This document shows, one piece after another, positions 281-64,000 of a stretch of 64,000 bases of DNA (its first letter is position 1; each line of letters opens with the position of its first letter). Under the pieces are notes generated by a model. It ran no database searches, had not been told where the DNA came from, and saw only the letters and a program-made list of their open reading frames with translations. The position numbers were made by a program, and so were the translations under genes. This DNA comes from Alteromonas salexigens (GTDB taxonomy: Bacteria > Pseudomonadota > Gammaproteobacteria > Enterobacterales > Alteromonadaceae): NCBI RefSeq assembly GCF_025628895.1, contig NZ_JAOTJC010000005.1, positions 62,001 through 126,000 of the forward strand, read 5' to 3'.

Positions 281-3200
281 ATGATTAGTAAAACTCAGTT
301 CACTCGCGTTGCGATGGCTGTTGCTCTGTCAGTTGGTGTCGCTACCACTGCCGTGGCTAACACAGGTCAGTCGTCAGCTATGCGTGGTACGATTGTCGGG
401 CCGCAGGGTAATCCTGCTGCAGGTAGTGCAATTACCATTCTTCACCAGCCTTCTGGCACAGTGAAAGAAGCCACTGTAAACGCAGAAGGTTTGTTCTCTG
501 CGCGTGGTCTGCGTGTTGGTGGTCCCTACACCATCATTGTTGAGTCAGACAAATTTCAGAGCCGGGTTATCGAAGGTGTTTATCTTGACCTGAACGATAC
601 CTTCCAACTGAATGCACAGCTTGAGTCTGTGTCTGACGTTGAGCGTATCGTGGTAACCGGTACCCGTGACTTCTTCTCTAACAGTGGTTCTGACTCGGTA
701 TTTGGTGAAGAGTTCATCAACAATGTGGCCACGTTCAACCGTGACCTGAAAGATGTGGTACGTAATAACCCACTGGCAGCGGTAAGCCCTGACGGTGACG
801 AACTGAGTGTTGCCGGCACCAACCCGAAATACAATGCCGTGACCATCGATGGCGTGGGCATTAACGATACTTTTGGTCTGCAAAGCAATGGTTACCCCAC
901 TTCACGTCCGCCTATTTCACTGGACGCTGTTGAGCAGGTATCGATTGAATACGCACCATTTAATACCCGTGCCGGTAAGTTTGGCGGCGGTAACATCAAC
1001 GTGGTTACCAAGTCTGGTACCAATGAAGTATCAGGTTCCGTGTTCTTTGAAACGGTTCCTACCACTGGTGATGCGATCGATAACCGCGACCCAGACGGCG
1101 ATGTTGAGTTCCCTACCACTAACGAAGAAGAGTCTTACGGCTTTACGTTAGGTGCGCCGTTAATTGAAGACAAACTGTTCTTCTTCGGCTCTTATGAGAA
1201 GTGGGAAGAAGATGTTGTTCTGGATTTTGACCCATCAACGTATTCAGCTGAAGCATTAGCTGACGCCAATTCTGTAGTCAATATTCTGCAAAGCAAGTAT
1301 GGCATTACTGACTCAATCGGTGGTGCTCCTGCTCCTAACGAAGATGAAAAAGTACTCATCAAACTGGACTGGAACATTAACAGTGATCATCGTGCAGATA
1401 TAACCTACAGCAAGCAGGAAAGTGCACAGGCGCGTAACTTTAATGACTCGCCTCGGGATATCCTGCTGACCTCTAACGGTTGGACTTCAGAACAAACCAA
1501 CGAATTTATCACTGCGCACATTTACTCTGACTGGACAGCAGACTTCTTCACTGAAATCAGCATGTCATATAAAGAGTTCGAGCAAGCGTCGGTTACCAAG
1601 AATTCACTGGGCGAAATTAATGTTCGTGGCGAAGCGGTTGATGTTGTAGCGGGACAAGATCAGTTCCGTCACGCCAACGTACTGGCCAACGAAGTATTTA
1701 ACCTCGGCTTCCACGCGACTTACCTTGCCGGTGACGTTGAATACAAGTTTGGTGCTGAGATGGAAGATACCACCAACTACAACCTGTTTGCCGAAGGTTC
1801 AGATGGTGTGTGGGAATTCGACAGCATTGAAGATTTCGAAGCTGGTGAAATCGCTGAGTTTTACTACAGCAACGCATTCACGAACAATGAACAGGATGTG
1901 GCTTACGACGTAGACAGCACCACTTACGCGCTGTACGGCGATGCCACCTTTGACCTGACTGATGACATTATTGTTACTGCCGGTCTGCGGTATGAGTACC
2001 TGTCAGTTGATCAGGCGCCTATGCTGAACCAGAACTTCCTGGACACTTACAACTTTGAAAATACTGAAAACCTGGATGGGTTTGATATCTTCCTGCCACG
2101 TGCCAGCTTCAACTGGACTGTCAGTGATGCGGTAACAGTACGCGGTGGGCTTGGACGCTATACCGGTGGTACGCCACTGGTGTGGATTTCCAATGCTTAC
2201 ACTAACGATGGTGTGACTCTTGATTCAGTAACATTGGATTCGTTGGACCCGTCACAGGTTGACTTTACGTCTGTACCTCAGGCGGCCCGCGATGCGTTGT
2301 CACAGGGTTCCGGCAGCACTAACCAAATCGACCCTGATTTCAAACTGCCTTCAGACTGGCGTTATCAGTTAGCCGCTGACGTGGTCTTTGATGTTCCTCA
2401 CCTGGGTGAAGACTTCGCGTGGACCACAGAGCTGACCTACGTTGACCGTGAAGACAGCGTATACTGGGTAGACTTGTCTCGGGTTGATAATGGCAATCGC
2501 ACCGCAGATGGTCAGCGCATTATCTGGGACAATGTTTACGACGGTACCGAATTTGAAGACAATTTCGATATTCAGCTGACTAATTCTGATGACGGTGGCC
2601 GCAGCATTCTGTTGACCACAGCACTGAATAAAGCCTGGGATAACGGCTTCTCCTTTAATGCCTCGTACACCAACCAGGACATTACCGAAGCTAACCCTGG
2701 CACCAGTTCACGTGCGGTTTCTAACTACCAGTATGAAGTAACACTGAACCGTAACAACCCACTGGTGGGCACAGCATACTACGAAGTTGAGCATCGTTTT
2801 GTACTGAACTTAGGCTACAAAACTGAGTTCTTCGAAGGTTACGAAACCAACTTTAACCTGTTCTTCGAGCGCCGCTCTGGCCGTCCATTCTCATGGACCC
2901 TGGGTGCGTTCCGTGACGGCGACCTGGGTGACCAGCCGGCACTGGATGATTCGGATATCTACATTCCTTACATCCCGACTGGTGCGGACGATCCAAACAT
3001 GGACTTCGCCGCGGGCCTGAGCTACGAAGAAATTATGGCCATCGCCGAAGAAGCTGGGGTTGCTGGCGCTGCCGGTGGCTATGTTGAGAAATACTCAGCG
3101 ACGCAGCCATGGTTTGCGACTGCTGACCTGTACATTTCTCAGGAAGTACCGGGTTTTGTGGAAGGTCATAAAGGTAAGGTTTACCTGACTGTGTCTAACT

Positions 3201-3403
3201 TTGCGAACATGCTGAATGATGACTGGGGCAAAGTGTACCGCATGCGCTTCCCGCAACAGATCCTGTTCGACTATGACGTAAATGAACAAGGCCAGTATAT
3301 CTACAGCGAGCGCTTCGGTGGAACCGAGACTGCTAACTTCGATACCTTCGATGTTTCAGAGTCTACCTGGCGACTGAAAGTTGGCGTTAAATACACATTC
3401 TAA
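281..3403 (+). CDS. TonB-dependent receptor, Oar-like
   Basis: Outer-membrane TonB-dependent receptor of 1040 residues; the substrate is unknown. I chose the ATG at 281 because it follows the ribosome site AGGGAAA and starts a signal peptide (MISKTQFTRV, hydrophobic core, cleavage near AVA-N at residue 26). Residues about 33-115 form a carboxypeptidase-regulatory-like beta-sandwich (GTIVGPQGNPAAGSAITI, then GLRVGGPY). A TonB-box-like ERIVVTG follows, then a plug domain with VTIDGVGINDTFG and NINVVTKSGTNE, and a long beta-barrel ending in the aromatic C-terminus KVGVKYTF typical of porins. It lacks the plug cysteine pair seen in the next gene. The two receptors are clearly paralogous but each has its own terminator. 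Related receptors are often linked to peptide or polymer uptake in Alteromonadales; that role is only inferred here. Confidence 0.93.
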   Translation: MISKTQFTRVAMAVALSVGVATTAVANTGQSSAMRGTIVGPQGNPAAGSAITILHQPSGTVKEATVNAEGLFSARGLRVGGPYTIIVESDKFQSRVIEGVYLDLNDTFQLNAQLESVSDVERIVVTGTRDFFSNSGSDSVFGEEFINNVATFNRDLKDVVRNNPLAAVSPDGDELSVAGTNPKYNAVTIDGVGINDTFGLQSNGYPTSRPPISLDAVEQVSIEYAPFNTRAGKFGGGNINVVTKSGTNEVSGSVFFETVPTTGDAIDNRDPDGDVEFPTTNEEESYGFTLGAPLIEDKLFFFGSYEKWEEDVVLDFDPSTYSAEALADANSVVNILQSKYGITDSIGGAPAPNEDEKVLIKLDWNINSDHRADITYSKQESAQARNFNDSPRDILLTSNGWTSEQTNEFITAHIYSDWTADFFTEISMSYKEFEQASVTKNSLGEINVRGEAVDVVAGQDQFRHANVLANEVFNLGFHATYLAGDVEYKFGAEMEDTTNYNLFAEGSDGVWEFDSIEDFEAGEIAEFYYSNAFTNNEQDVAYDVDSTTYALYGDATFDLTDDIIVTAGLRYEYLSVDQAPMLNQNFLDTYNFENTENLDGFDIFLPRASFNWTVSDAVTVRGGLGRYTGGTPLVWISNAYTNDGVTLDSVTLDSLDPSQVDFTSVPQAARDALSQGSGSTNQIDPDFKLPSDWRYQLAADVVFDVPHLGEDFAWTTELTYVDREDSVYWVDLSRVDNGNRTADGQRIIWDNVYDGTEFEDNFDIQLTNSDDGGRSILLTTALNKAWDNGFSFNASYTNQDITEANPGTSSRAVSNYQYEVTLNRNNPLVGTAYYEVEHRFVLNLGYKTEFFEGYETNFNLFFERRSGRPFSWTLGAFRDGDLGDQPALDDSDIYIPYIPTGADDPNMDFAAGLSYEEIMAIAEEAGVAGAAGGYVEKYSATQPWFATADLYISQEVPGFVEGHKGKVYLTVSNFANMLNDDWGKVYRMRFPQQILFDYDVNEQGQYIYSERFGGTETANFDTFDVSESTWRLKVGVKYTF

Positions 3404-3430
3404 TAACGATAAATAACGTCAAACACCTCA

Positions 3431-3461
3431 AGCCGGTTACCTCAGGGTAACCGGCTTTTTT
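3431..3461 (+). terminator. Rho-independent terminator after first receptor
   Basis: A perfect 10-base stem (AGCCGGTTAC / GTAACCGGCT) with a 6-base loop is followed by six T residues, 27 bases after the receptor stop codon. Confidence 0.93.
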
Positions 3462-3705
3462 AATTATTTTATTTATCGTCCTCGCCGGATGTCATTTGCC
3501 TGTCAGGCCGTTCCCTGCCGCTGTCATGGCACAGAAATAAATGTCTGCTACCCTCCTCATTGTTGGTTAAATTTCATTCGCTATGTAACTCGTGTCACAA
3601 AAGTGTCATATTAACCAGCGAGAATCGAGCCGCTGTTACCTGTGGGCCGCTTATGTTGCTTTCACATGGTTCAAAAAAATAGAGTTAAAACAAGGGAAAC
3701 ACATC
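3462..3705. other. Intergenic region before second receptor
   Basis: No gene is supported between the terminator and the second receptor start at 3706. An in-frame upstream extension to 3592 exists, but it carries no sensible protein and would bury the signal peptide. The promoter of the second receptor should lie here; I could not pick a convincing -35/-10 pair. Confidence 0.5.
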
Positions 3706-6700
3706 ATGCACACATCATCCAAACTGAGCCGCATTGCGGTCGCAGTTGCGCTGTCTGTCGGGTTGTCTACAGCCGCTGTGGCTCAACAGACATCATCCGG
3801 TATTCGCGGAAACATCACTGGGCCTCAGGGCAATGCTGATGCTGGCGCCACAATAACAATTTTGCATATTCCATCGGGAACAGTGCGTGAGGCCGTGGTT
3901 GGCGAGAGTGGTCAATTCTCGTTAAAAGGCTTACGGGTAGGTGGTCCTTATCAGATTATCGTGGACTCCGACCGCTTCGAAGATACTGTGGTAGAAGATG
4001 TGTATCTAACTCTGGGTGAAGACTACAACCTGAGCATGGCACTGGAAGCCGAGCGCGATATCGAAAACATCGTGGTGACCGGGTCCGCTATCAGTGCCAC
4101 TGCGTTTAACGAACGTGGTCCTTCTGCTACCTTTGGTTTAGAAGAGCTTGAGCAAGCACCGTCTATCAACCGCAATATCACCGATATCGTGCGTATCGAC
4201 CCGCGAATTTATGTAGATGAGTCTCGTGGCGATGAAAACTCAATTCGCTGTGCCGGTAAAAGCCCCCGCTTTAACAGCTTTACCCTGGACGGTGTGCGAG
4301 TGAACGACTCTTTCGGTCTGAACCAGAACGGTTATCCCACCGAGCGTATGCCTTTCCCTTACGACGCTATTGAGCAGGTTGCCGTTGAGCTGGCACCCTT
4401 TGATGTGATGTACGGAGGCTTTACTGCCTGTAACATCAACGCAGTGACCAAGTCAGGTACCAACGAAATTCACGGCAACGTGTTTGCTGATTACACCAGC
4501 GACAGCTTCCGCGGTGACTCAATAGAAGGCGACAAAGTTGACGTCGGTAATTACTCCGAGCGTCGCTACGGCTTTACCGTAGGTGGCCCGCTGATTGAAG
4601 ACAAACTGTTCTTCTTTGCAGCGTATGAAAAACTGGAAGGGGCAAACCTGTTCTTCCGCGGACCAACAGGTTCGGGTGCGGCAGATCAGGTGGATATTAC
4701 CCAGGCTGAGCTTGATGAAATTGCCAGCATCGCGCGGGATGTCTATCAGTACGATCCGGGTCCAATTCCTTCAAGCTTCGATAATGAAGATGAAAAAGTG
4801 TTGCTGAAACTGGACTGGAACATCAATACCCAGCACCGCATGTCGTTAACGTACAACTATAACGATGGCAACAACTTCACCGAGTCCGACGGTGACAACG
4901 ATGAGTTTGAATTTGCTAACCACCTGTACGAGCGCGGCGCTGAGCTGGAATCGTGGGTAGGTGTATTGTATTCAGACTGGACCGATCAATTCACCACTGA
5001 AGTCCGGGTAGGCTACCTTGACCTGCAAAACCGCCAGAACTCAGTAGGCGGTACTGACTTCGGTGAAATTCGTGTTGAAACCGATGACGTTGATGTTTAT
5101 CTGGGTGGCGATGACAGCCGTCAGTCAAACGTTCTGGGCTACGACCTGCTGAACCTGTCATTCCGCGGTTTCTACTACTTCGATAATGGCCATGAGCTGA
5201 CGTTCGGATTAGAGCGTGAGTCGCTGGATATTTTCAATCTGTTTGTTCAGCACACCGAAACTGAAATTCGTTTCGACGGCATTGAAAACTTCCGTAACGG
5301 GTTTGCCGATGCGATTTATTACAACAATGCGCCCTCACATAACCCGGAAGATGCCGCGGCTGACTGGGGCTACGCGTTAAATACTGCCTATGTTCAGGAT
5401 GAGTTCTACTACGGTGATTTCACTTTCATGCTGGGCATGCGTTATGACTGGTATACGTCCAGCGACCGACCTGAAGAAAACACAGACTTTGTGGCTGACT
5501 ATGGTTTCTCCAACACGGAAACTCTGGATGGAGAAGGTCTTTGGCAACCACGTATTGGCGTAACCTATGAGTGGACCGAAGACACCACATTGCGTGGTGG
5601 TTTAGGCCTGTACTCGGGTGGTAACCCCAATGTATGGATCTCAAACAGCTTCTCAGCAAATAACGTGCTGCAATTCGGGCAACGTGGCCGTTCGTTCGGT
5701 TATACCGATGGTTCACGCTCACTGTTTGATGACGACGTAGTGTATGCGGGTCTGGAAGACGGTGTACCAAATGGCCCAGGCTACGGTATTCCGCAAGAGC
5801 TGTATGATGCTGTGTCAGGTGGCGTAGGTGACAACTTCGAAATTAACTATCTTGAGCCGGGCTTCAAGGTGCCCTCGGAGTGGAAACTGTCTCTGGGTGT
5901 TACTCATATATTCCCACAGCAATATGTGGTTACTGCAGACTTGTTAGTGAGCCGTCGCCAGGATCAGGCCATCATTTTACGTGGTGACCTGGAGCAGGTG
6001 GGTACTACCGAGGACGGTTATCCTCAGTATGACAGTGTCCGCGAACCCAGCTTCAAGCTGGCTAACTCCGAAACCGACAGTACCTCGTTGACTGCATCAA
6101 TTGGCGTAGCCAAGCAATACGACAACGGCATCGACTTCACGGCCGGTTACTCGTACAACGACGCTGAAGATGTGCAGCCTATGACCAGTGCGGTGGCGTT
6201 CTCGAACTACACCAACCGCGCGTTCTTCGACCCGCAGGAGCAGGTGTCTTCTACGTCGAACTACAACATTCGTCATCGTTTCACCGCGACACTGAACTAC
6301 GAGACGCTGTGGTTTGACGATTACGCCACACGCTTCTCGCTGTTTGGTTCACTGAACGAAGGCCAGCCGTACAGCTTTGCGTATAACGGTACGGTTGACC
6401 CTTATGGCTTCACGCCGTTCCTGGACTTCGCGGAAAACGTCCTGGAGCCAGGTGCTGAGCGTAACAGTGAGTACGGTTCATGGTGGGGCAAGCTGGATCT
6501 GCGGGTTACCCAGCAGCTGCCAGGCTTCTCTGAAGGTCACAGTGCACAGGCATTCTTCGTGGTTGATAACCTGACGAACCTGCTAAACGATGACTGGGGT
6601 ATTCTGGAACAGGTTGATTTCCCTAACCTGGTTGGGCCGGGTGACCGTGCAGAATCCCGTGTTGGTGATGCGTCACTGTACGAAATTCGTGTAGGCGTTG

Positions 6701-51116: not shown

Positions 51117-51384
51117 GATTCGTCCTATACTCTCAATACGGGTCATCCTGAATGCGGATAATCAACTAAGAGCAACAGCCAGGCCAAGTAGTAAACTTTC
51201 TTTTAAATCATTACTTTAGGCTTTTTTGGGCCTGTGAGTGAATCACATTTAGCGTGAGCATTGAGTGAGTTGATAATTTTTTGGTCAAATTCGCCACTTT
51301 TCTCAATAACAATTTTAAGGGTGAGGATATTCAAATTGTTGGCTTTCGTGCATAATACGGCCAGCGAAAAGTAAGGGTTAAAAA

Positions 51385-58846: not shown

Positions 58847-60670
58847 GTGAAGGTATTTAAAGCGTTACTATTAAGTGCGGCGGTGGCCACTGCACTAACC
58901 GGCCCCGTAACAGCACAGCCACAGTCTGACACTACAGGCAGTGTCGCGGCTAAACAGCAAAGCGAACATGACCAGCTGTTTGCCCTGTTTGCGGCAGCCA
59001 ATGAACGTGAGCTGGCACTTAACCCTATTTCCGGCTTATTCAGGGGCGATATGCGTCGTGCCGACCGGCTGGGTGATTATCTGACTGACGCGCATACCAT
59101 TGCCATCCGCACCAATACACTGCTGAATTTGTCAGAGCTGGAAAAAATTGACCGTACTCAACTCAATGACACCGATAAGCTGGCTTACGATGTGTTTGAG
59201 TACAATCAGCAAAAACAGCTGAAAGGCACCAGCGAGGAAATCCTTGCCCTGACCGAAGTGCGCCCGGTGAACCATTTCAGTGGTTTCCATACGTTCTACC
59301 CCACCTTCGCCAGTGGCAAAGGCGCGGCCCCTTTCAATACCATCGAAGATTATGAGAACAACCTGTCCCGCCACCAGGACTACATCGACATCAGCGAGCG
59401 GGCCATTGACAAGTTCCGCGAAGGCATGGAAACCGGTGTGCTGGAAACCAAGCTGACCATTGACCGGGTTATCCAGCAATTTGATACCCAACTGGCCATC
59501 CCTCTGAAAGAGTCGCAATTCTGGGGGCCGGTGACACAGTTCCCGGACAGTTTTACCGATGAGCAGAAAGCCCGTCTGACAAAAGAGTATCTGGCTGCGA
59601 CTAAAGCCATTTATGCATCTACCGAGCGCATGCGTGACTTTTTGCGAGATGAGTATTTACCGGTTGCCCGTGAGAGCATAGGCCTAAGTCAGATGAAAGG
59701 TGGCGATAAGCTGTATAGCCACCTTATTGAAAACACCACTACTTTACCGTTAACCGCAGACTACCTGCATGAATTAGGTATGCAGGAAGTGGAGCGAATT
59801 AAAGCCGGCATGCTGGAAATTATGGATGAAGTGGAGTTTGAGGGCAGCCTGAACGAGTTTTTTGACTACGTGCGCACCGATCCTAAATTCAAGCCGGAGA
59901 GCCGGGAGGCACTGACTGAGTCCTATTATCGTATAGGCCGTGAGGTGGATGAGAAAATTGAGGACTACTTTTCCTTGCTGCCTGAAACTGACCTGGAGAT
60001 TAAACCTTACGATCCGGCCATTGAACAGTTCAGCGCTGGAGGCTCCTACCAGCGCGGCACGCCAGACGGATCGCGTCCCGGCACGTTTTATTTTAACGCC
60101 TATGACTTACCCAGTCGTCTGACTACCGGCAACGTGACGCTGTACCTTCACGAAGGCGCGCCGGGTCACCATTTCCAGATCAGTCTGGCGCAGGAAAATG
60201 AAGACCTGCCTGCATTTATGCGCTTTGGTGGGAATAACGCTTACGTAGAAGGGTGGGCGTTATATTCGGAAACCCTGGGTTATGAAATGGGCTTCTTTGA
60301 TGATCCCTGGAACCGTTATGGGACGTTACAGGACGAACAGTTACGGGCAATGCGTCTGGTCGTCGACACCGGCATCCATGCGAAAGGGTGGACCCGGGAG
60401 CAGGCTATCGACTTTATGCTGGAAAACTCGGGTATGACCCGCACTGAGGTAGTGGCCGAGGTCGAGCGTTATATTGCCATACCGTCACAGGCGCTGGGAT
60501 ATAAAGTTGGAGCACTGAAGATACAAGAATTACGTCAACAGGCCGAAGAAGAGTTAGGTGACGATTTTGATATCAAAGCCTTCCATGCCCAGGTACTGGG
60601 AACCGGCGCCTTGCCGTTGCCAATTCTGGAAGAAAAAATTGAACGCTGGATTGCCAGCGAAAAAAGCTAA
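58847..60670 (+). CDS. DUF885 family secreted peptidase-like protein
   Basis: A 607-residue exported protein starting at GTG 58847 (GGGAG upstream). The signal peptide is FKALLLSAAVATALTGPVTA. The domain is DUF885, whose metal-site signature LHEGAPGHHFQISLA (HExxxHH-like) lies near residue 430, with YVEGWALYSETLGYE downstream supplying a further ligand. Family members are thought to be zinc-dependent carboxypeptidases or M32/M3-like peptidases; that activity is inferred. It is a single-gene unit. Confidence 0.88.
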   Translation: MKVFKALLLSAAVATALTGPVTAQPQSDTTGSVAAKQQSEHDQLFALFAAANERELALNPISGLFRGDMRRADRLGDYLTDAHTIAIRTNTLLNLSELEKIDRTQLNDTDKLAYDVFEYNQQKQLKGTSEEILALTEVRPVNHFSGFHTFYPTFASGKGAAPFNTIEDYENNLSRHQDYIDISERAIDKFREGMETGVLETKLTIDRVIQQFDTQLAIPLKESQFWGPVTQFPDSFTDEQKARLTKEYLAATKAIYASTERMRDFLRDEYLPVARESIGLSQMKGGDKLYSHLIENTTTLPLTADYLHELGMQEVERIKAGMLEIMDEVEFEGSLNEFFDYVRTDPKFKPESREALTESYYRIGREVDEKIEDYFSLLPETDLEIKPYDPAIEQFSAGGSYQRGTPDGSRPGTFYFNAYDLPSRLTTGNVTLYLHEGAPGHHFQISLAQENEDLPAFMRFGGNNAYVEGWALYSETLGYEMGFFDDPWNRYGTLQDEQLRAMRLVVDTGIHAKGWTREQAIDFMLENSGMTRTEVVAEVERYIAIPSQALGYKVGALKIQELRQQAEEELGDDFDIKAFHAQVLGTGALPLPILEEKIERWIASEKS

Positions 60671-60981
60671 CAGTAATTAGTGCTTTGCAGAAACCAGCAG
60701 CGCCGTGACCGGCCTGTTGGTTTCGACAATAAGTGCTCACTTTCAATCACATCCCACTTAAAAGCAGTTCACCTCCCCGCACCTACCTCATTCTTAACAT
60801 GATATTCCGTTTTTTTGTTCCGCTGTGGTTATGGTAAAATCGCCGCTTATCTGAACGCCATTAGGCGTAAATAGTAGAAACGTCATATTCCGCATGCTGT
60901 TATTAAGGCCTTCACCTGAAGGCAGGATAATACGCACTGCTGAAAGTTGATCTTGTCATATTTGCCAGAGAGACGATGTAA
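60671..60981 (+). promoter_or_regulatory. Intergenic region with likely dusA promoter
   Basis: No gene is seen. An extended -10 element TGGTAAAAT ends at 60840, about 140 bases before dusA, preceded by a T-rich stretch but with no consensus -35 at the right spacing. The long leader between it and dusA contains no recognised riboswitch. Confidence 0.45.
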
Positions 60982-62028
60982 GTGTCTGACCTAAATAACA
61001 TTGCGCCTAATCATTCCAGTCCAGTTATCGACAGGCGTTTCTCCGTCGCGCCAATGCTGGATTGGACAGATCAACACTGTCGATACTTCTTGCGCCTTAT
61101 ATCCAGTCACGCGTTGCTGTATACCGAAATGGTGACGACCGGAGCGCTTATTTATGGCAAGGGTGATTATCTGGCGTTCAACGAAGAAGAACACCCGGTC
61201 GCCTTACAACTGGGTGGCAGTACTGCCGATGACATGGCGCGCTGCGCCGAAATGGCGCAAGCGCGGGGCTACGATGAAGTCAATATCAATGTGGGCTGTC
61301 CGTCAGATCGGGTTAAAAACGGTCGCTTCGGCGCCTGTCTGATGGCTGAGCCGGAACTGGTGGCAGCGTCAGTAAAAGCTATGCAGGCCGTGGTTGATAT
61401 TCCCGTCACCGTGAAATGCCGGATAGGGATAGACGACATGGACGAATACGCGGATTTTGCCCGCTTTATCGATATTGTCGCTGATGCCGGTTGCGATACT
61501 TTTATTGTGCATGCCCGCAAGGCCTGGTTACAGGGGTTGAGCCCGAAAGAAAACCGGGAAATACCGCCGCTCAATTATCCCCGGGTTCATCAGCTGAAAG
61601 CCTCTCACCCGGAGTTGTCGATTAGCATTAATGGTGGTATTAAAACCCTTGATGAAGCCGCCAGTCAGCTAGCCCATGTCGATGGCGTCATGATGGGTCG
61701 GGAGGCCTATGCGAATCCTTACTTGCTGGCCGATGTGGACAACACGCTGTTCGGCGCCAATACTCAGGCGCCTTCCCGCGAGCAGATAGTGTATGCCATG
61801 CAGGCCTATATTGAGCGCCAAACGGATCAGTGGTTTAAGCCCTGGCACGCGGCCCGTCATATGCTGGGGCTGTTTCAGGGACAAGCTGGCGGCCGCATAT
61901 GGCGGCGTTACCTGAGCCAGAATGGTACCGGCAAAAATCCGGATCCCAACTTGCTCATCAATGGGTTAGATGCAGTCTTAACCGCGCAGGCTAATGTGAA
62001 GACGTTTAACGAATCGAAGGTTGGTTAA
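60982..62028 (+). CDS. dusA: tRNA-dihydrouridine synthase A
   Basis: FMN-dependent enzyme reducing uridine 20/20a in tRNA D-loops, 348 residues. It starts at GTG 60982. RRFSVAPMLDWTDQHCRYF is the N-terminal FMN-binding segment, NVGCPSDRVKNGRFGACLM holds the catalytic cysteine, and FIVHARKAWLQGLSPKENR and ISINGGIKT complete the active-site barrel. In enterobacteria dusA sits next to pspG; here the following genes also lie by psp. Confidence 0.96.
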   Translation: MSDLNNIAPNHSSPVIDRRFSVAPMLDWTDQHCRYFLRLISSHALLYTEMVTTGALIYGKGDYLAFNEEEHPVALQLGGSTADDMARCAEMAQARGYDEVNINVGCPSDRVKNGRFGACLMAEPELVAASVKAMQAVVDIPVTVKCRIGIDDMDEYADFARFIDIVADAGCDTFIVHARKAWLQGLSPKENREIPPLNYPRVHQLKASHPELSISINGGIKTLDEAASQLAHVDGVMMGREAYANPYLLADVDNTLFGANTQAPSREQIVYAMQAYIERQTDQWFKPWHAARHMLGLFQGQAGGRIWRRYLSQNGTGKNPDPNLLINGLDAVLTAQANVKTFNESKVG

Positions 62029-62153
62029 AACCGCGAATCTAATTGGTCAAAAAAGCTACATTTTAATTGTCAGGCCGTCCCGGTGGCGGCCAAGTATTTT
62101 TCACCCTTCTTAAAAACCCTTTTGAATCAGTATGATAGTTTTTTATCACTGGT

Positions 62154-62169
62154 TGGCACACCTCTGGCA
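62154..62169 (+). promoter_or_regulatory. Candidate sigma-54 promoter (-24/-12)
   Basis: TGGCACACCTCTGGCA fits the pattern TGGCAC-R-N4-TTGCW with a single change in the -12 box (TGGC for TTGC), keeping the essential GG and GC pairs at the right spacing. It lies 60 bases before the small exported protein gene, leaving a leader of about 50 bases. Confidence 0.6.
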
Positions 62170-62229
62170 ATAGCAATACTGTCGCATCAACACTGGGTTG
62201 TTGCACTCACGGAAGTCAGAGGGAAACAC

Positions 62230-62520
62230 ATGAAAACGCAATCAGTAATTTTAGCTTCACTTCTCACGGCAGCATCATTCAGCGCGCCCGTTACTGCGCA
62301 GGAAATATCGTTAGAAGAGTTTGTTGGCCGGTTAATGAGCCAGGCTGTGGATGTAACCCGCCACGAAATTAACATGAGTGTCCAACAGGTGGTGGCTAAT
62401 ACCGCCCATATGTTTGACTTAGACGGCACGCTACCTGGTGGTTCAGTATCGGTGACAGACCTTGCGCAAAGCATGCGTGACGAACAAAAGGCCGCCGTGT
62501 CAGCCAGCGCGTCAGAGTAG
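62230..62520 (+). CDS. Small exported protein of unknown function
   Basis: A 96-residue protein. The ATG at 62230 follows GAGGGAAA and opens a clear signal peptide (MKTQSVILASLLTAASFSA, cleavage near PVTA-Q at 24). The upstream in-frame extension to 62083 crosses the sigma-54-like promoter and is rejected. The mature part is about 72 residues, mostly helical, without cysteine: EISLEEFVGRLMSQAVDVTR, then MFDLDGTLPGGSVS and an acidic tail. I do not recognise the family. It is followed 6 bases later by a 48-residue membrane peptide and then a terminator, forming a compact unit between dusA and pspA. Confidence 0.78.
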   Translation: MKTQSVILASLLTAASFSAPVTAQEISLEEFVGRLMSQAVDVTRHEINMSVQQVVANTAHMFDLDGTLPGGSVSVTDLAQSMRDEQKAAVSASASE

Positions 62521-62526
62521 CCGCGT

Positions 62527-62673
62527 ATGATTCAGCAATTCAGTGTGCTGCTGATCATGCTTATGCCAGTGTTGTCTTTTGCAGTGGGGGCGTTGTTATT
62601 CACCACTCGTAGTATGCGACGGCTGCTACAGCGTCGACCCCCCAAGGCTGGTTCTTCAAACAAACTGCTTTAA
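62527..62673 (+). CDS. 48-residue membrane peptide
   Basis: A short frame with one strong hydrophobic helix (QFSVLLIMLMPVLSFAVGAL) followed by a basic tail (TTRSMRRLLQRRPPK), which would leave the tail in the cytoplasm. It lies 6 bases after the exported protein gene and 1 base before a terminator stem. That placement, more than its sequence, argues that it is real. It is not similar in length or pattern to PspB, PspD or PspG as I know them. Confidence 0.6.
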   Translation: MIQQFSVLLIMLMPVLSFAVGALLFTTRSMRRLLQRRPPKAGSSNKLL

Positions 62674-62712
62674 AGTAGATAACGTTCATCTTGTTATCTG
62701 CTTTCTCTTTTT
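62672..62712 (+). terminator. Rho-independent terminator after small-protein unit
   Basis: A 12-base stem with one G-U pair (AAAGTAGATAAC / GTTATCTGCTTT), a 9-base loop and a T-rich tail. It starts inside the stop codon of the membrane peptide. Confidence 0.82.
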
Positions 62713-62991
62713 CTACCACCCGGTTTATTTCCCCTCTGTAACGCCTTAATCATCCCACTGGGTAGTGTGCACGCTAGATGCTTCCCCATATTGACTACCC
62801 CATTCAGATACTCACTAACGTGCCTGCGCGTCGGTATCGCGCCAATCCTGCTCTGTCACTAAACACCCAGTGGCGAAAAAGACAAACCGGGTTAGTCAAA
62901 TTCACTACTTATCATTGTCTAGCTCACAAATTATACCGACTGTTTAAGCGGTTTTTTAATAATTTCAATTAAAAACAACAAGTTAAAAATA
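62713..62991. other. Intergenic region upstream of the pspA promoter
   Basis: A 64-codon open frame (62778-62972) has no ribosome site and unlikely composition, and is not called. The stretch is the expected place for activator (PspF-type) binding sites, but no site could be assigned by eye. No divergent pspF is present. Confidence 0.4.
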
Positions 62992-63007
62992 TGGCACAGG
63001 TGTTGTA
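62992..63007 (+). promoter_or_regulatory. Sigma-54 promoter of pspA
   Basis: TGGCACAGGTGTTGTA matches TGGCAC-R-N4-TTGCW at all but one position. It lies 64 bases before the pspA start. Psp operons are classically sigma-54 dependent, so both pattern and context agree. Confidence 0.82.
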
Positions 63008-63070
63008 ATAACCAAATAACTTTCACTAATTCACTACGTGAAAATTTACAGGTAAACACAGGAGATGGTT

Positions 63071-63742
63071 ATGGGCATGTTTTCAAGAATGACAGACATT
63101 GTGCAGGCTAATATTAACGCCATGCTGGATAAAGCCGAAGATCCGGAAAAAGTGATTCGTCTGATTATCCAGGAAATGGAAGAAACGCTGGTGGAGATTC
63201 GTTCGGAAGCGGCGAAGTTCCTGGCAGAACAGAAACATTTAGATCGTCAGCTACAGCGGGTGAATAAAGAAGTCACCGGTTGGCAGGAAAAAGCGCAACT
63301 CGCCATTGATAAAGATAAAGAGACCCTGGCCCGGGCGGCGCTCGCAGAAAAACAGCGTTACGCTCAGCAGGCCGAGTCACTGCAACAACAACACGATACT
63401 ATCAGTGAGTCATTGGCGCAGCTGCAGGGTGATACCGGTCGGCTGAACGAAAAACTGGCCGAAGCGAAAGCGAAACAAAAGGCCATGGTGACACGTCAAC
63501 ATTCTGCATCAGTGCGGCTCAAAGTTAAGGCGGTAGAGCATAGCGATAAGATAAACCACGCTATGGCGCGCTTCGACCAGTACGAGCAACGTATTGACCA
63601 GCTCGAAGCACAGGTGGATGCATATGAGTTTACCGGCTCTGCTACACAGCCTCATTCACTGGATGCGCAGTTCCGTGCGCTGGAAGAGAATGATGCCATC
63701 GAGCGCGAACTCAACGCCATGAAGAAAAATAAAGCGGCCTAA
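63071..63742 (+). CDS. pspA: Phage shock protein A
   Basis: A 223-residue peripheral inner-membrane protein of the PspA/IM30/ESCRT-III superfamily that protects membranes under stress. I chose the ATG at 63071 (MGMFSRMTDIVQANIN), 6 bases after AGGAG, over the ATG at 63065, since it matches the family N-terminus. The N-terminal amphipathic helix is followed by long coiled-coil helices (EDPEKVIRLIIQEMEETLVE, in part EKVIRLIIQEME). In related systems it also inhibits the activator PspF. pspC follows after 54 bases. Confidence 0.96.
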   Translation: MGMFSRMTDIVQANINAMLDKAEDPEKVIRLIIQEMEETLVEIRSEAAKFLAEQKHLDRQLQRVNKEVTGWQEKAQLAIDKDKETLARAALAEKQRYAQQAESLQQQHDTISESLAQLQGDTGRLNEKLAEAKAKQKAMVTRQHSASVRLKVKAVEHSDKINHAMARFDQYEQRIDQLEAQVDAYEFTGSATQPHSLDAQFRALEENDAIERELNAMKKNKAA

Positions 63743-63754
63743 CTGATGTCAGAT

Positions 63755-63775
63755 CCGTCCGCCTGAGGCGGACGG
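63755..63775 (+). promoter_or_regulatory. Hairpin between pspA and pspC
   Basis: Perfect 9-base stem CCGTCCGCC / GGCGGACGG with a TGA loop, followed by CCCTTTACC rather than a T run. It may attenuate transcription or protect the pspA message, giving more PspA than PspC. Confidence 0.55.
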
Positions 63776-63796
63776 CCCTTTACCAGGAGAAGATGT

Positions 63797-64000
63797 ATGA
63801 AAATTCCCAGTTCACAAAAGCGAATTTACCGTGATTTGGATAATGCAGTAATTGCCGGTGTGTGCGCTGGCGTTGCCCGCTATCTGGACATTGATTCGGT
63901 GTGGGTGCGCGGCGCGGCCATTGTATCCTTGTTTGTTATGCCTACTCTTGCCGTGCTGGCTTACCTGGCGGCAGTGTTTCTTCTGCCAAGGTGGTCACTA
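63797..64000 (+). CDS. pspC: Phage shock protein C, partial
   Basis: The first 68 codons of a PspC-domain membrane protein; the window ends within the gene. The ATG at 63797 follows AGGAGA. RIYRDLDNAVIAGVCAGVAR is the PspC signature, and one membrane helix (SLFVMPTLAVLAYLAAVFLL) is visible. PspC normally senses membrane damage with PspB and recruits PspA. A pspB gene is not present between pspA and pspC as it is in E. coli. Confidence 0.93.
   Translation, partial: MKIPSSQKRIYRDLDNAVIAGVCAGVARYLDIDSVWVRGAAIVSLFVMPTLAVLAYLAAVFLLPRWSL

Follow-up and report, generated by a model that had tools for sequence, protein, structure and literature searches.

A small exported protein in the pspG slot of Alteromonas salexigens and its relatives is a likely member of the PspF/sigma-54 regulon

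What stands in the place of pspG after dusA in Alteromonas salexigens, and does it belong to the phage-shock response? The window, a stretch of 64,000 nucleotides (NZ_JAOTJC010000005.1, 62,001-126,000), ends with dusA, two small open reading frames and a pspA-pspC pair. An earlier note on this DNA had pointed out that enterobacteria carry pspG beside dusA, and this order was indeed found in E. coli K-12. A search for pspG itself (TIGR02975) gave no match in 246 genomes of the family Alteromonadaceae, with the E. coli control being positive. The features of the locus, in window coordinates and all on the plus strand, are as follows.

60982..62028, + strand: dusA, flanking marker gene (NF008774, 1.2e-153; Pfam Dus, 3.9e-85)
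62022..62036, + strand: weak distal PspF-type enhancer site, 8.0 bits, overlapping the end of dusA
62044..62058, + strand: proximal PspF-type enhancer site, TGGTCAAAAAAGCTA, given 12.9 bits by the matrix that was trained on sequence upstream of pspA
62125..62137, + strand: weak IHF-like site, two mismatches to the consensus
62154..62169, + strand: -24/-12 (sigma-54 type) promoter element TGGCACACCTCTGGCA, one mismatch
62230..62520, + strand: S96, small exported protein of 96 aa with a signal-peptide-like N terminus and no Pfam or NCBIfam match
62527..62673, + strand: S48, single-span membrane peptide of 48 aa, lineage-restricted
62672..62704, + strand: hairpin terminator (13 pairs, -13.8 kcal/mol), then a T tract
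62871..62907, + strand: PspF-type enhancer pair of pspA (62871-62885, 11.1 bits; 62893-62907, 18.6 bits; this locus belonged to the matrix training set)
62992..63007, + strand: -24/-12 element of the second pspA, conserved in relatives
63065..63742, + strand: second pspA paralogue, 225 aa (TIGR02977, 3.7e-81)
63797..64003, + strand (the window ends at 64000): short pspC-like gene, 68 aa (Pfam PspC, 2.4e-18)

The earlier note had described a one-mismatch -24/-12 element followed by a 96-residue exported protein, a 48-residue membrane peptide and a terminator; all were present, at the positions given above, and the promoter element was conserved across the genus loci. The terminator hairpin folded with a z of -5.6, and none of 200 shuffles folded equally well. 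The two enhancer sites upstream of the S96 promoter lie 22 bases apart, and the IHF-like site was better matched in several relatives than in this genome. Comparison of sequences makes it very likely that S96, standing in the place of pspG, is controlled by PspF. The reading preferred here, which we regard as probable, assigns S96 to a family of small exported proteins, so far undescribed, that is under PspF and sigma-54 in Alteromonadaceae and some relatives, occupies the pspG slot and acts as a periplasmic effector.

The placement of the unit between dusA and the psp operon held only in part. Both dusA and pspA do flank the unit, but the psp genes found here, pspA and pspC, make up a second locus; the canonical pair of pspF and pspA is elsewhere in the genome. 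The genome carries two PspA genes, one beside dusA and one beside pspF on contig C10 (L271:4248-4937), with 51% identity between them. On that contig, pspF (TIGR02974, 548 bits, above cut-off) adjoins the first pspA, which is followed by pspB- and pspC-like ORFs (these last two read by eye). The psp genes beside S96 are accessory ones, and PspF, if it is their activator, would work on them in trans. The stop of the second pspC, just past the window, overlaps the start of a gene for a 109-aa membrane protein (L031:4001-4330) that matched nothing in Pfam or NCBIfam at E<=0.01. Also downstream of the psp genes are a DUF2333 gene and a gene for a TIGR04219 outer-membrane barrel (L031:4432-6186).

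The S96 protein was characterized across its copies. By a simple rule, a signal-like N terminus with an AxA-like cleavage site was present in 62 of 63 genus copies and in 29 of 30 members of a diverse set. The mature part comprises ~73 residues and no cysteine, with a mean net charge of about -7 in the genus copies. An AlphaFold model placed a long helix at residues 23-61 and a second at 75-94, with low confidence (pLDDT 58). The hydrophobic moment at 100 degrees did not exceed that of shuffles in either the genus or the diverse set, and a simple membrane-lying amphipathic helix was not established on this measure. A strong hydrophobic periodicity peaked instead at 90-95 degrees in three sets (genus copies, diverse members, and eight proteins from other families), with z-scores inflated by the relatedness of the sequences inside each set. 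Given this periodicity and the lack of a clear excess at 100 degrees, S96 is called probably helical; as a hypothesis, a continuous hydrophobic face could run along the helix.

Family searches gave S96 no convincing name in Pfam, NCBIfam or PDB sequences. Neither S96 nor S48 of the window matched any NCBIfam family at E<=1, TIGR02975 (PspG) included, and S96 matched no Pfam family at the same threshold. When 26 members were compared with Pfam, only scattered weak matches were returned (best NID, 0.00054, in 3 of the 26), and 30 members compared with NCBIfam behaved similarly (best PhoR, 0.0021, in two; LolA, 0.0084, in one). The single match among PDB sequences had an E of 0.53. No description of an S96-type protein was found in the literature searched, most subscription journals and the regulon databases lying outside that search. 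Earlier published work, in the part of it available, analysed which genes lie within 150 bp of pspA and pspC, and a term search of the main text of PMC11237479 turned up neither pspG nor dusA nor Alteromon-.

These properties bear on what the protein might do. It could be, although we think it rather doubtful, that S96 is a periplasmic holdase of the Spy/CpxP kind, keeping mislocalised secretin or outer-membrane subunits off the inner membrane. Such a protein would be small, exported, acidic and probably helical, as S96 is; the phage secretin pIV induces Psp, according to the available text of PMC3128695, and the TIGR04219 barrel gene lies downstream of pspC. However, the window S96 fell into no Pfam family at E<=1, no chaperone family was recognised among the weak Pfam matches of the 26 members, and NCBIfam offered weak matches only, LolA in a single member of 30.

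The distribution of S96 was then established at two depths. A single-sequence query detected the gene in 58 of the 59 genomes of the genus that were searched, the one miss (G033) being an assembly 87% complete, and in none of 39 genomes from other families of the order. The 58 genomes hold 63 copies, 27-58% identical to the window S96 in the sets compared. A profile reached 92 of 246 family genomes, in 26 of 52 genera, at E <= 0.001 (some of these matches are weak); the other 154 had no match to a profile that is itself weak for so divergent a protein. A search of the genome contigs with the window S96 alone returned no relative.

Recurrent linkage to pspA had been set beforehand as a test of the proposal, and it was borne out. 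Of the 58 genus loci, 57 showed dusA and 55 pspA; of the three in which pspA was not seen, one lies at a contig end (G046), one on too short a stretch (G034) and one beside pspC only (G031). In 47 primary loci of other genera, a non-random selection from the profile-match list, dusA was present in 45, pspA or pspC in 44 and pspA in 35. Ten of the genomes behind the 12 primary loci without pspA were checked, and each had one pspA elsewhere. The arrangement varies: some genera have an S96-type gene directly before pspA, where another divergent small exported gene can follow dusA, and five genus genomes carry tandem copies, every copy with its own -24/-12 element. A gene that looks by eye like a rhodanese gene separates dusA from S96 and pspA at three loci (L130, L133 and L137); E. 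coli PspE is also annotated as a sulfurtransferase. At two others (L109:1886-3856; L126, reverse-complemented 1730-3715) dusA is parted from S96 by an opposite-strand gene that looks by eye like an NAD synthase.

Eleven further copies occupy a second locus, with no dusA or psp gene within the fetched stretch. All 11 nevertheless had a -24/-12 element, and the best enhancer score was at least 11.2 bits in every one. In both annotated second loci (L061:2498-2776 and L140:4374-4667) the neighbour is a gene for a DUF808 membrane protein, so that DUF808 may have some connection with the phage-shock response.

The psp neighbourhood also admits a different role, which we judge unlikely: that S96 is under PspF control but is a regulator, reporting the state of the periplasm to PspC-type proteins or feeding back on them. 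Nine loci without pspA keep S96 beside pspC (L105, L112-L115, L121, L134, L149 and L151), each in a genome that has one pspA elsewhere. The PspC encoded here, however, is 68 aa long and offers little by way of a periplasmic domain, and the 11 second-locus paralogues lack dusA and psp neighbours altogether in the stretches fetched.

One-mismatch matches to the -24/-12 consensus numbered five in the window against 3.84 expected, so a single element is at chance level and the case for the S96 promoter rests on comparison. An element with at most two mismatches was present in 57 of the 58 genus loci (49 with one, 8 with two), and that of the last (G050) was seen separately. The enhancer was defined elsewhere: in 54 genomes of the genus a palindrome, TRGTNAAWTTNACYA, precedes pspA, usually twice and about 21-22 bases apart. 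A matrix was trained solely on 97 sites upstream of genus pspA and applied upstream of the S96 promoter, where it scored at least 9 bits in 57 of 57 genus loci (2.0% in dinucleotide-shuffled sequence), with a second site in 46 of the 57 (none in shuffled sequence). A chance -24/-12 match is ruled out by this conservation and these enhancers, though the lone element is at chance level.

As a control, the matrix was applied to E. coli K-12, where it picked out a pair of sites before pspA (-100 and -80) and a single site before pspG (-67). These numbers of PspF sites agree with PMC3709507, as far as its available text goes. The S96 sites of the genus loci lie at about -134 to -99 from the -24 box, a longer spacing than at either E. 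coli promoter.

The same pattern was found in 58 further loci, namely the 47 primary loci from other genera together with the 11 second loci (seven of these 11 within the genus). A -12 box rule requiring GC left ten of these without a promoter; TTGT-, TTGA- or TTGG-type boxes together with enhancers were near all ten, and the -12 rule was therefore relaxed for this count. With the relaxed rule, an enhancer and a -24/-12 element preceded 58 of 60 S96-type copies, the exceptions being those at L121 and L138. These loci contain 300 other ORFs with a length of 150 aa or more; the combination preceded 22 of them, and all 22 were pspA.

A strict pattern joining enhancer and -24/-12 element, which covers only sites starting TGGT and is blind to the window pspA site (starting TAGT), matched the window genome once in its entire length, at S96, and had no match in the backward control. 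In 36 genus genomes it gave 56 matches against 5 backward; by hand count, 37 of the 56 lie within about 2 kb of an S96 gene, 18 elsewhere, and one was unplaced. A separate enhancer-like site of 19.5 bits was noted at about 51186-51296 of the window, on the minus strand, 110 bases before a poor -24/-12 element; it is possibly a chance occurrence. The gene, its export-signal pattern, its linkage and the conservation of its promoter and enhancers are supported by computation. The recurrent linkage and a PspF-type enhancer common to S96 and pspA support the proposal that the pspG slot is occupied by a new member of the phage-shock regulon.

That PspF is the activator at the S96 promoter is something we infer, because about ten PspF-like activators are encoded in the window genome. 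Their number leaves room for a further alternative, in our estimate very improbable, in which another sigma-54 activator drives S96 and the common motif reflects related binding specificity. Against it, the motif trained on pspA recovers the PspF enhancers of E. coli, and a pspF scoring above cut-off is encoded by the window genome and by 18 of the 24 others checked, including all ten Alteromonadaceae among them. One could also suppose that the S96 frame is spurious and that what the promoter drives is an RNA or an ORF without function. The shortness and fast evolution of S96 and the E. coli sRNA gene pspH after pspG could lend this something, but it is barely credible: in 63 copies from 58 genomes, 27-58% identical to the window S96 in the sets compared, a single frame keeps a signal-like N terminus and a number of conserved positions, and 60500-64000 had no Rfam match at gathering scores.

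S48 fared differently from S96. The earlier note had joined the two in a model of a periplasmic factor with a membrane partner, and this model proved not to be general: an S48-like peptide closely follows only 23 of the 63 copies, compared with 2.6% in shuffled sequence. S96 and S48 do not form a constant unit, the pair being found in 19 of 58 genus genomes. Many S48-like peptides of the genus share a proline inside the span, as seen by eye. On these comparisons, S48 looks real, yet not general.

The slot after dusA was also inspected by eye in 50 loci of the order, chosen as the best dusA matches plus picks to cover families and so not a census. A small exported ORF behind a -24/-12 element was present in 13, two of them in the window's own family, and all 13 had an enhancer-like site. 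Otherwise the slot held a PspG-like membrane protein (five loci), pspC (two), pspA directly (one) or another membrane gene (three); in the remaining 26 no -24/-12 element was present in the scanned stretch, seven of these having an enhancer-like site alone. Profile comparison of the exported proteins after dusA with S96 was positive for f16 (97.2%) and gave 42.7% for f15 and 59.9% for f6/f20. In one other family, three loci (L244, L247 and L256) have a perfect -24/-12 element after dusA, without a PspF-type enhancer, before a gene for a 212-aa membrane protein.

Under the preferred reading, damage to the inner membrane would release PspF from PspA, and PspF would bind the upstream enhancer pair and activate sigma-54 polymerase at 62154-62169. 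Transcription of S96, here together with S48, would run up to the hairpin. The product would be secreted, probably via Sec, and the acidic, cysteine-free and probably helical mature protein would work in the periplasm as an effector. The mechanism we think most likely is that its long helix would rest against the stressed inner membrane from the periplasmic side, or against proteins of that membrane, and limit leakage, complementing PspA on the cytoplasmic face. We infer the PspF binding, induction, location and activity of S96 in this scheme, and the role of periplasmic effector is a plausible one.

A wider picture can be offered tentatively. It is possible, though we would not count on it, that a large part of the order has a periplasmic arm of the phage-shock response, not described in the literature searched and made up of small, fast-evolving secreted helical proteins under PspF that shield the outer leaflet of the inner membrane as PspA does the inner one. 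These proteins would be encoded in the dusA slot, at the start of the pspA operon or at a further locus (DUF808-adjacent in the two annotated cases), and the lineage with PspG would have filled the slot differently. A secreted protein in the place of pspG across many genera of the family does suggest a periplasmic effector in the phage-shock response. The locus also provides a simple, testable handle on membrane protection, with one promoter, one small gene and two markers, and it points to a conserved family to which neither Pfam nor NCBIfam gave a name.

The proposed protection of the stressed inner membrane is a likeness between S96 and PspA/IM30. PspA, however, is cytoplasmic and larger (225 aa here), and no sequence relation between the two was seen. 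Spy and CpxP are small helical periplasmic stress proteins of the Cpx/Bae regulon; S96 is predicted to be likewise small, helical and periplasmic, but its regulon differs and no sequence match was found. In its control S96 resembles the PspF regulon, with the common enhancer motif, a -24/-12 element and a position adjoining a pspA-pspC pair. The E. coli PspF targets, given as pspABCDE and pspG in the available parts of PMC9239133 and PMC2763126, include none that is S96-like. The closest parallel in arrangement is E. coli PspG (TIGR02975), which similarly follows dusA with its own -24/-12 element and PspF-type enhancer. PspG is a predicted integral inner-membrane protein according to the available text of PMC2763126, whereas S96 has a signal-like start and a soluble-looking remainder.
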